A stretch of 55,734 bases of DNA, taken from assembly GCF_000472285.1 (NCBI RefSeq), contig NZ_KI421426.1, positions 110,442-166,175 on the forward strand. The letters run 5' to 3'. The first letter of the stretch is position 1. Each line of letters begins with the position of its first letter. This DNA is from Desulfuromonas sp. TF (lineage in GTDB: Bacteria > Desulfobacterota > Desulfuromonadia > Desulfuromonadales > ATBO01). The position numbers were made by a program, and so were the translations under genes. Below, piece after piece: positions 1-6,044 of this stretch. Below the pieces are notes generated by a model. The model did no database searches and was not told the origin of the DNA. It saw only the letters and a list, made by a program, of their open reading frames with translations.

Positions 1-309
1 GTTGCGTCCCGTGGCGAATGCGTTTGGACCTTCCGAGGGGATGATGTAGACCTTGGGCATGGGCATGTTCGCCTGCAGGGCGAGGCGTCGGACCATCCCG
101 TAAAAAGAGGGATTCTCTGTTTCGGAGACTTCCCGGGCCTTGTACATCTTGAGGATGATCTTGTCCGAATACCAGTAGGAGAAGAAGTTCATGCCGCACG
201 CCAGACCGAATGCGATGAGCATGCCGGACTGGCCGCCAATGGCGCTGCCCATGGCGACGAGAAGGAGGGTCAGACAGGTGAGAAGGAAGGTGATCTTGAG
301 CAGGTTCAT
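1..309 (-). CDS. htpX: HtpX-like M48 membrane zinc metalloprotease, N-terminal part (gene runs off the window)
   Basis: Reading the minus strand from the ATG at 309 gives 103 codons without a stop, cut by the window edge. The product begins with a hydrophobic helix, has a second one near residues 25-50, then [34 protein letters not shown], the region just before the HExxH zinc site in HtpX. The catalytic motif lies outside the window. HtpX degrades damaged inner-membrane proteins. The start has a good ribosome site (GGAGG at 318-322). It is a paralogue of the complete htpX at 10127-10960, not a copy: the two share the SDKI, PMPKVYI and NAFATGR blocks but differ elsewhere. This one, unlike the other, is preceded by a manganese-type riboswitch. 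Confidence 0.9.
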
Positions 310-497
310 TTCTTTTACCTCCGCGTTTAATTTGCGCATCGGGTAAAAGAAAAGACCTTTACCCGATGCATGGTTGAATGCATGGACAAAGGTCTTGCAA
401 GGCTCGACTTTACGTCGCAGCTCCCGCGTCCGGGTGGCGAGGCCACCGTATTGACGAAGCGCGGGCCGGTAGGTTCCGGATGCTACTCCCCTTTAAT
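310..497 (-). promoter_or_regulatory. yybP-ykoY (Mn2+) riboswitch with translational expression platform, upstream of htpX
   Basis: On the minus strand the RNA begins AAAGGGGAGUAGC (494 downward) and ends GCAAGACCUUUG (398-387), the hallmark ends of the yybP-ykoY aptamer. Between them are CGUCAAUAC followed by a GGUGG/CCACC hairpin and CCGG, as in the family. The platform is visible. An arm at 358-369 pairs perfectly over 12 bases with 336-347. Positions 352-360 are complementary over 9 bases to the aptamer's 3' strand (388-396). Positions 342-352 can pair over 11 bases with 309-319, covering part of the Shine-Dalgarno and the A of the ATG. Inferred logic: ligand holds the aptamer 3' strand, the hairpin forms, the anti-Shine-Dalgarno is trapped and htpX is translated. 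Without ligand the start is occluded. Confidence 0.88.
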
Positions 498-504
498 TAG
501 CGAT

Positions 505-533
505 AATCTACCCATCTCCTACCGAGATGTCAA
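505..533 (-). promoter_or_regulatory. sigma70-type promoter for the riboswitch-htpX transcript
   Basis: Minus strand TTGACA (533-528), 17-base spacer, TAGATT (510-505). Initiation would fall at about 498-500, immediately before the aptamer's AAAGGGGAG, which is the geometry expected for a riboswitch leader. Confidence 0.7.
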
Positions 534-5009: not shown

Positions 5010-5831
5010 CTATCCCTTGAAGAACGCCAGCAGTTCGGCGTTGACCGCGTCCTTCTGGGTGGTACACAGGCCGTGCGACCCGCCCTTGTAGACCTTGAGC
5101 TGCGCGTTCCTGACCAGCTTGGCGGACAGCATAGCCGAGTCAGCGATCGGCACGATCTGGTCGTCGTCGCCATGAATTATCAGGGTCGGCACGTCGATTT
5201 TCTTCAGATCCTCGGTCTGATCCGTCTCCGAAAAGGCCTTGATGCAAAAGTAAGCTGCCGGGAAGCCGGCCATCATCCCCTGGAGCCAGAAGAACTCCCG
5301 TACTCCTTCCGAGATCTTGGCTCCAGGCCGGTTGTAGCCGTAGAAGGGGATGCTCAGATCCTTGAAGAATTTCGAGCGGTCGGCAAGGACATTGGCGCGG
5401 ATCTCATCGAAGACTTCCATCGGCAAGCCGCCCGGATTGGCGGCTGTCTTCAGCATCAGCGGCGGCACTGCGCCGATCAGCACGGCCTTGGCCGCACGCT
5501 TCGTGCCGTGGCGGCCGATGTAGCGGGCCACTTCGCCGCCGCCTGTGGAGTGGCCGACATGAATGGCGTTCTTCAAGTCGAGCGTTTCGACGAGTTCTGC
5601 GAGGTCATCGGCATATGTGTCCATGTCGTTGCCGTTCCAGGGTTGACTCGACCGCCCATGGCCGCGGCGGTCATGGGCGATGCAGCGATATCCGCGCGAG
5701 GCGAGAAAGAACATCTGGTCTTCCCAGGCGTCCGCCGAGAGCGGCCATCCATGGCTGAAGACGACGGGCTGTCCCGTCCCCCAGTCCTTGTAATAGATAT
5801 GAGAACCGTCCTTGGTCGTGATCGTTGGCAT
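5010..5831 (-). CDS. alpha/beta hydrolase, non-haem chloroperoxidase/arylesterase type
   Basis: 273 aa from the ATG at 5831, which follows AAAGGAGA and begins [18 protein letters not shown], the standard start of the family. Longer in-frame starts would run into the riboswitch leader. Oxyanion region [15 protein letters not shown], nucleophile elbow GHSTGGG (Ser), acid in [10 protein letters not shown] and the catalytic His in GGSHGLC form a full Ser-Asp-His triad. No signal peptide, so cytoplasmic. Members hydrolyse esters or lactones and may brominate in vitro; the natural substrate is unknown. It is the first gene after the GEMM riboswitch and so the one most directly controlled. Confidence 0.88.
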
Positions 5832-5935
5832 GGCATGGTCTCCTTTTCCTTTAACTCGCCACGAGGTCAGTCCCCCACGGGGAGGGTATCGTGTGGAACT
5901 TCCCAAAAACAAAGACCGGGCCACCGTTCAGGATT

Positions 5936-6017
5936 CTTCATCCTTCGGCAGCTCGGCCGTCTTCGTCTTCTGAGACCCGTGGCTTTCCGGCCCCGCCTCA
6001 CGGCAGGTTTGGCTTTA
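5936..6017 (-). promoter_or_regulatory. GEMM-I riboswitch (c-di-GMP or cGAMP class) leading the hydrolase operon
   Basis: Minus-strand RNA from 6016 reads AAAGCCAAACC, then CCUGCC-GUGA-GGCGGG (helix closed by a GNRA loop), GGAAAGCCACGGGUCU, a short loop, AGACGGCCGAGCUGCCGAAGG. These are the conserved segments of GEMM-I in order: AAACC, GNRA hairpin, AAAGCCACGGG, a GUCU/AGAC helix and GCUGCCGAA. Downstream, GGUCUUUGUUUUU (about 5920-5906) could pair by its GUCUU with GAAGAC of the aptamer and end in a U-rich run, suggesting a transcription terminator that competes with the folded aptamer. That part is inference. Whether the ligand is c-di-GMP or cGAMP cannot be decided by eye. Confidence 0.85.
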
Positions 6018-6044
6018 TCGGGACAACAATCTTTTTACAACCTC

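Follow-up and report, generated by a model that had tools for sequence, protein, structure and literature searches.

A predicted manganese-sensing yybP-ykoY riboswitch at the head of operons for the HtpX membrane protease and cation exporters in Desulfuromonas and its relatives

The riboswitches upstream of alx and mntP in Escherichia coli control translation, and the alx leader is responsive to alkaline pH. The physiological role of the zinc metalloprotease HtpX is unsettled. In Lactococcus lactis, helix P1.1 of the aptamer and an intrinsic terminator are mutually exclusive and Mn2+ favors read-through, an ON response; an adenosine in loop L3 of the same RNA binds Mn2+ through its N7 and gives the preference for this ion (available text of PMC9190785). 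In one review the Mn riboswitch is described as an OFF switch (PMC11477304, available part), against the ON response reported for L. lactis. In the available parts of reviews such as PMC9334652 and PMC11477304, the genes placed under Mn2+ riboswitches are transporters, and the former names TerC, GDT1 and cation P-type ATPases as families of Mn2+ exporters. In Bacillus subtilis, HtpX and FtsH were among the proteins co-purified with the TerC proteins MeeF and MeeY, and FtsH became essential once both of these were lost (PMC10550928 and PMC10246235, available parts). A rhomboid protease inactivates MgtE under conditions of high Mn2+ and low Mg2+ (available text of PMC7231995).

The window, by which is meant the whole stretch of 55,734 nucleotides analyzed here, comes from Desulfuromonas sp. 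TF (contig NZ_KI421426.1). At its beginning, a Mn2+-sensing yybP-ykoY riboswitch very probably heads an operon in which htpX is followed by a cation exporter; it would control this operon by Mn2+-dependent antitermination. The class of riboswitch and its logic are already known; the conserved htpX target is, as far as found, new and unexpected. The initial annotation of this DNA was aware of no such riboswitch for htpX, and we too found no report of htpX under a yybP-ykoY or Mn2+ riboswitch, in a search that had the founding papers of the class outside its scope, where an earlier mention is possible. The window holds two htpX genes:

1 to 309, minus strand: the N-terminal 103 codons of htpX (zinc metalloprotease HtpX), with its ATG at 309-307; best NCBIfam match NF002826
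10127 to 10960, minus strand: a second htpX, without riboswitch, with a short leader lacking the motif

The 103-residue fragment scores under the NCBIfam cut-off for the full-length protein. Just outside the window the gene is interrupted by exactly 100 consecutive N adjoining base 1 (L006, 5843-5942), probably a scaffold gap, because of which only the first 103 amino acids of this HtpX are readable in the genome; the apparent frame break of the gene is explained by these N. In a relative (L009) the HtpX is 96% identical over the 103 residues, contains the HExxH motif as HELAH, and reaches 404 bits with the NCBIfam HtpX equivalog, for which the cut-off is 369. On the same strand, about 0.5 kb outside the window and at most about 40 nt after the end of htpX, lies a gene of the calcium/sodium antiporter family (TIGR00367, 247 bits, cut-off 180). 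The aptamer motif is absent from the leader of the second htpX, as had been noted initially. This gene groups with riboswitch-free Geobacter copies in a tree of HtpX (support 92, not starred), and the frame after it presumably resembles the rRNA methyltransferase that follows htpX in Geobacter relatives. Another riboswitch-htpX copy is present in the same genome (L113; G000:C8, 456-1491; leader L004), where htpX is broken near codon 69 and terC follows. The earlier view that the riboswitch controls one of two HtpX proteases was borne out as to the place of the aptamer before htpX, and too narrow in that the RNA heads an operon with the antiporter and the genome has this further copy.

At the gathering threshold, the Rfam scan of the window did not list the htpX leader. 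With the Rfam model for the class, RF00080, the leader scored 18.6 bits (E 0.0034 in 421 bases) against a gathering cut-off of 45, so that the covariance search which the initial annotation had named as a check was negative at that cut-off. We take the gathering score as a threshold of the library, not as a defining biological feature of the class. RF00080 (release 15, cut-off 45) gives the mntP leader of E. coli 41.6 bits, the E. coli alx leader was not listed at E <= 0.01, and the cut-off was reached in just 2 of 14 control genomes. Of nine other htpX leaders, L013 alone was matched at E <= 0.01, with 26.5 bits; all ten htpX leaders tested fall below the present cut-off. The window leader was the best of five RF00080 matches in its genome (E 0.008), and one of the four further weak matches (C8) proved to be the second riboswitch-htpX copy. 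Since mntP, alx and the control genomes show the cut-off to be a poor test, relatives were collected and a lineage covariance model, R1, was built. The three remaining weak loci of the genome were rejected, R1 giving a 10.2-bit scrap at L002 and nothing at L003 and L005, and other weak Rfam matches in the window (mir-9243, HepE_CRE, snoU25 and others) were at chance level. Given these results for mntP and alx, Rfam surveys may undercount Mn riboswitches. As a separate observation, a c-di-GMP-I-GGC riboswitch is found at 5943-6022 of the window on the minus strand (72.7 bits, above the Rfam cut-off), followed by an alpha/beta-hydrolase-like frame at 5010-5924 on the same strand.

Matches to the HtpX fragment were sought in 147 related genomes, which contain more of them than were listed. 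In 28 of the 30 loci first fetched (L008-L037, the window's own included), GGGGAGTAG stands before htpX. These 28 and the genome's second copy, L004, form the alignments of 29 leaders; L015, whose leader runs into a contig end, and L016, in which the motif is absent, were left out. R1 was built from the 29 leaders, among them the window's own, and its score for the latter is therefore circular. It finds the alx leader of E. coli, which is outside the training set, with 32.6 bits and an E-value of 1.3e-7 in 20 kb; on the mntP leader it gave no match. As the Rfam score alone is below threshold, the identification rests on the match of R1 to alx, on covariation, and on the exporter genes at sister aptamers, which together bear out the Mn-class aptamer originally placed before htpX. 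The aptamer and its surroundings are laid out as follows:

388 to 496, minus strand: predicted yybP-ykoY (Mn2+) aptamer, placed at 388-496 by R1 and over 334-503 by RF00080, with helix covariation in 29 leaders
452 to 454, minus strand: loop L3 U-C-A, invariant in 29/29 leaders and equivalent by motif to U39-C40-A41 of L. lactis, which are Mn2+ ligands
505 to 533, minus strand: putative sigma-70-type promoter TTGACA-17-TAGATT, matching at 10 of the 12 positions compared; 0.2 expected in shuffles

Read directly on the minus strand, the aptamer motifs are AAAGGGGAGUAG at 494-483, CGUCAAUAC at 456-448 and GCAAGACCUUUG at 398-387; CCGG occurs at 433-430, and also at 479-476 and 469-466. P1.1 joins 490-494 to 388-392 in the register of L. 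lactis, and the consensus fold places it one base off, at 489-493. L1 GGGGAGUAG, the CGUCA core of L3 and the closing strand AGACCUUU are invariant in all 29 leaders, an invariance that for the first and last motifs is partly the result of selection, because the leaders were collected by those motifs. The predicted Mn2+ ligand residues, mapped by motif to L. lactis (G488 as G9; 454, 453 and 452 as U39, C40 and A41), are likewise all invariant. In the consensus helices 97.8% of the cells are paired and changes on both sides are seen at 14 of the 26 pairs, with 0/500 shuffles as high; the five pairs of P1.1, being invariant, say nothing on covariation. The whole htpX leader has a fold z of -5.0, and none of 200 shuffles was as stable. 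A promoter matching at 9 or more of 12 positions is found just before the aptamer in 27/29 leaders, compared with 3.4% of mononucleotide shuffles. With such a promoter before the aptamer in the window and in these related leaders, transcription probably starts at the aptamer.

Judged by its sequence, the htpX leader is a yybP-ykoY (Mn2+-class) riboswitch aptamer, for which Mn2+ binding is predicted. The sub-threshold Rfam score could speak for a chance resemblance with no riboswitch behind it, which is scarcely credible in the face of a conserved aptamer, covariation, a promoter and an association with genes that extends over dozens of genomes. It is quite improbable that an RNA of the same class responds here to some other signal, for example alkaline pH or another transition metal. 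R1 does match alx, which is pH-responsive too, and NhaA antiporters are encoded downstream at some loci. RNAs of the class bind Co2+, Cd2+ and Ni2+ as well (available part of PMC11477304). These points are opposed by the L3 adenosine, the residue tied to Mn2+ preference in the available text of PMC9190785, which is kept in 29/29 leaders, and by the downstream TerC, GDT1 and cation P-type ATPase genes, which belong to the families of Mn2+ exporters named in PMC9334652 (available part).

Between the aptamer and the start codon, the predicted expression platform consists of the following elements:

352 to 396, minus strand: anti-aptamer hairpin, the predicted stem of an intrinsic terminator (396-378 with 371-352), at -22.2 kcal/mol and with covariation
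345 to 353, minus strand: U-tract of the terminator, UUUUCUUUU, from the T-count in 29 leaders
336 to 369, minus strand: 3′ hairpin (369-358 with 347-336) that would exclude the terminator and shield the anti-Shine-Dalgarno strand; perfect over 12 bp, with covariation
309 to 322, minus strand: stretch from the Shine-Dalgarno (SD) sequence GGAGG (322-318) through base 1 of the start codon; within it, 309-319 are able to pair with the anti-SD at 342-352

Three pairings had been pointed out at the outset, a 12-base hairpin, a 9-base complement and an 11-base anti-SD pairing, and all are exact in the sequence. The complement, 352-360 with 388-396, is perfect over its nine bases and forms part of a longer hairpin of 19 bp, interrupted by one bulge, which 0/200 shuffles equal in stability. 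Its arms are the 3′ strand of the aptamer, AAGACCUUU, as the 5′ arm, and AAAGGUCUU, and the U-tract comes directly after. The U-tract has at least seven T in eight in 27/29 leaders and six in the remaining two, and in most it is interrupted by one C. An automatic terminator scan of the window found none, a miss thought to be due to its stem rule, which allows no bulge. Across the 29 leaders the terminator helix is 92.7% paired, with 20 doubly changed cells vs. 7.3 in shuffles, and the 3′ hairpin has 20 vs. 5.1. By doubly changed cells and by score both helices covary (0/500 shuffles each); by the number of pairs changed on both sides neither is above chance (terminator, 5 vs. 3.4 shuffled, with 60/500 shuffles as high; 3′ hairpin, 5 vs. 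3.3, with 56/500 as high). A 38-nt piece of the 3′ hairpin, taken without its two outermost pairs, has -16.9 kcal/mol (0/200 shuffles). The same hairpin and a U-run, often of eight or nine U, are found before the majority of terC and P-type ATPase genes inspected. In computed best folds of a transcript ending at the U-tract, all 29 leaders have the terminator core paired, and the forcing of P1.1 costs at least 8.2 kcal/mol, with a mean of 12.1 (12.4 in the shifted register), as reckoned with folding energies that take no account of the ligand, tertiary contacts or co-transcriptional kinetics.

The initial annotation had described the platform as a translational switch. A purely translational Mn2+ switch, in which the anti-SD at 342-352 would cover 309-319 at low Mn2+ and be released at high Mn2+, is unlikely. 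It accords with the 11/11 bases that pair in the window leader, with a helix over the anti-SD/SD region in the unconstrained fold, and with the translational control of E. coli alx and mntP. Among the 29 leaders, however, this pairing is without covariation, being 81.4% paired vs. 79.8% in shuffles, with 2 doubly changed pairs vs. 2.2. When P1.1 is forced in the L. lactis register, 11 of the leaders gain more than 0.1 in computed openness of the SD, 4 lose openness and 14 are about unchanged, the mean going from 0.26 to 0.32; with the register of the consensus fold plus one further pair, the SD becomes more open in 8 leaders instead of 11. What is conserved instead is the terminator hairpin with its U-tract, present in 29/29. 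The perfect anti-SD/SD match of this leader stands, and the idea of control by translation alone is not supported; the SD pairing may be a local second layer at most.

The simplest reading of these sequences is that the conserved switch works chiefly through an intrinsic terminator, subject to Mn2+-dependent antitermination. At low Mn2+, AAGACCUUU would pair with AAAGGUCUU in the long hairpin, followed by the U-tract, and transcription would stop before htpX. At high Mn2+ the metal would stabilize P1.1, the terminator could not form, and RNA polymerase would read through. The 3′ hairpin is itself unable to prevent termination, since it is positioned downstream of the U-tract, but it is able to fix the RNA in the read-through state and to mask the anti-SD; after read-through it would capture the 3′ arm of the terminator along with the anti-SD, and the ribosome site would stay open. 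Excess Mn2+ would in this way turn on the HtpX membrane protease and the exporter together, the ON direction being suggested by the family members that have been studied.

Over the 147 relatives, R1 gave at least 65 matches in 46 genomes, the search filter being one that loses weak matches. The initial annotation had proposed a survey of related htpX leaders: among the matches listed, R1 lies 69-100 nt upstream in 38 of the 46 HtpX of at least 62% identity, and within 500 nt upstream in none of the 104 HtpX of 58% identity or less. The close set was drawn from the first 54 HtpX places and the distant set comprised 104 places, eight being in both. The eight close HtpX without an R1 match are the split G046, G029 with its leader lost, G020, and five others (G145:C26, G139:C2, G146:C10, G137:C1 and G142:C1); the frames behind these five are, as we take them from their N-termini, an rRNA methyltransferase and a ribulose-phosphate epimerase. 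Of 395 genomes drawn from the phylum, at least 33 have R1 matches, again with a filter that loses weak ones. Among 19 loci inspected outside the window's class, with genes called by likeness except at L128 and L129 (Pfam), a P-type ATPase follows at 11, as the first clear gene at 8 of them, terC at 2, htpX at 4 (L130, L136, L137 and L142) and none of these genes at 2; L130 has the order riboswitch, htpX, ATPase. Among 80 named HtpX loci R1 is upstream in five, namely in two Geobacter MAGs, Geomonas azotofigens Red51, an uncultured bacterium and Deltaproteobacteria GWA2_54_12.

The HtpX tree has 127 rows and was made by a quick method with SH-aLRT support only; repeats of the same locus, the partial or broken L008, L025, L098 and L111, and anything below 200 amino acids were left out. 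One starred clade of 42 holds 37 of the 43 riboswitch-bearing rows, and the other six are found in two other places. The tree requires 6 changes of the riboswitch label, where shuffled labels take 36, and at least three are forced by starred branches; gains and losses of the riboswitch are not distinguishable on it.

While 38 of the at least 65 R1 matches precede htpX, 27 do not belong to those 38. The first clear gene is terC at 13 of the 27 (13/13 confirmed by Pfam), nhaA at two (L071 and L077, no htpX between) and UPF0182 at three (L094 by Pfam, the others by likeness). The rest comprise htpX remnants (two, L076 and L096), a split htpX (one), AIR carboxylase (two), a Tim44-like or similar small protein (two), a zinc ribbon (one), and a small protein followed by DedA- and TerC-like frames (one). 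The order with nhaA, a Na+/H+ antiporter gene, directly after the riboswitch is that of L071 and L077; elsewhere it is riboswitch-htpX-nhaA. Mn-class riboswitches are followed by UPF0182, a family of unknown function, as the first gene or further on in L093, L094, L095, L080, L108 and L037, a position which suggests a link with manganese. Tim44-like proteins (by Pfam in L086 only) or small proteins of similar appearance stand beside Mn-class riboswitches in L086, L109, L101 and L080. In L074 and L075, R1 lies some 160-220 nt before the AIR carboxylase (PurE-like) frame. The zinc-ribbon locus behind R1 is nearly identical in L082 (G011, same order) and L121 (G402, same phylum), either by transfer or by contamination of one assembly.

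An exporter-type gene (TerC, CaCA, NhaA, GDT1 or P-type ATPase) lies downstream in 24 of 39 riboswitch-htpX loci and in 2 of 78 riboswitch-free htpX loci with enough sequence, the downstream reach being to the locus end, mostly about 950 bases, in the former (54 nt or less in three of them) and 2 kb in the latter, and other transporter families being missed in both groups because the reference transporters were drawn from the riboswitch loci themselves. The 39 consist of the 38 loci with an R1 match and G046, whose leader, split over two contigs, was joined by an identical overlap; L158, in the riboswitch-free set, is a record of L109, already counted among the 39. Beyond the 147-genome list there are nine riboswitch-htpX loci, and five have an exporter-type gene behind. 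The disparity between 24/39 and 2/78 indicates that the riboswitch is the mark of a metal-ion operon with htpX as its constant gene and a variable exporter. One may ask if htpX is a passenger, merely lying between the riboswitch and an antiporter, TerC or NhaA for which the RNA was selected. Such an origin is possible but doubtful. The 13 aptamers with terC as first clear gene, L071 and L077 with the riboswitch leading directly into nhaA, and L076 and L096 with only fragments of htpX speak in its favor. It does less well with the constancy of htpX, which is behind 38 of the at least 65 matches while its partner varies among five transporter families or is not found, and with the occurrence of aptamer-bearing HtpX in two places of the tree beyond the main clade, with label changes forced by starred branches.

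Returning to an htpX selected in its own right, the conserved arrangement of riboswitch, htpX and exporter suggests that the HtpX protease is part of coping with excess manganese. HtpX induced by Mn2+ would fit a task akin to those known from FtsH and TerC in B. subtilis and from the rhomboid protease and MgtE. We propose tentatively, and with slightly more reserve than conviction, that the riboswitch HtpX is a dedicated paralogue for Mn2+ stress, a constant partner of changing exporters that came under the riboswitch more than once, and that it clears or remodels transporters, or jammed and mismetallated translocation intermediates, at high Mn2+, in parallel to FtsH and YqgP of B. subtilis. 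Removal of mismetallated membrane proteins, the function first thought of for this protease, may be part of such quality control. The conserved position of a membrane protease from a single HtpX group beside exchangeable exporters would link quality control of membrane proteins with manganese stress. It also makes the role of HtpX testable, in that it predicts when the protein is made and what its substrates may be, namely metal transporters and Mn-dependent membrane proteins.

Among described systems, yoaB of L. lactis (RF00080) shares with this leader AAAGGGGAGUAG and the UCA motif, the P1.1 switch helix and the exclusion between P1.1 and a terminator. It differs in that its first gene encodes a P-type ATPase, whereas here it is a membrane protease; in addition, the leaders described here have an extra covarying 3′ hairpin that overlaps the terminator, and their U-tract is usually broken by a C. 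E. coli alx resembles the window leader by its match to R1 and controls a TerC-family gene, as do sister aptamers here; in the nearest relative, the TerC behind htpX is of the NCBIfam 'R_switched_Alx' type. In E. coli, however, htpX is not beside alx, and the control is translational and linked to pH. The Mn2+ exporter genes terC, GDT1/UPF0016 and P-type ATPase belong to the same families that are found downstream here, where htpX is first and the exporter second or later. In B. subtilis the link of MeeF and MeeY with the secretosome and with FtsH and HtpX is physical and genetic, whereas in Desulfuromonas and its relatives protease and exporter are joined in an operon under a predicted shared riboswitch.
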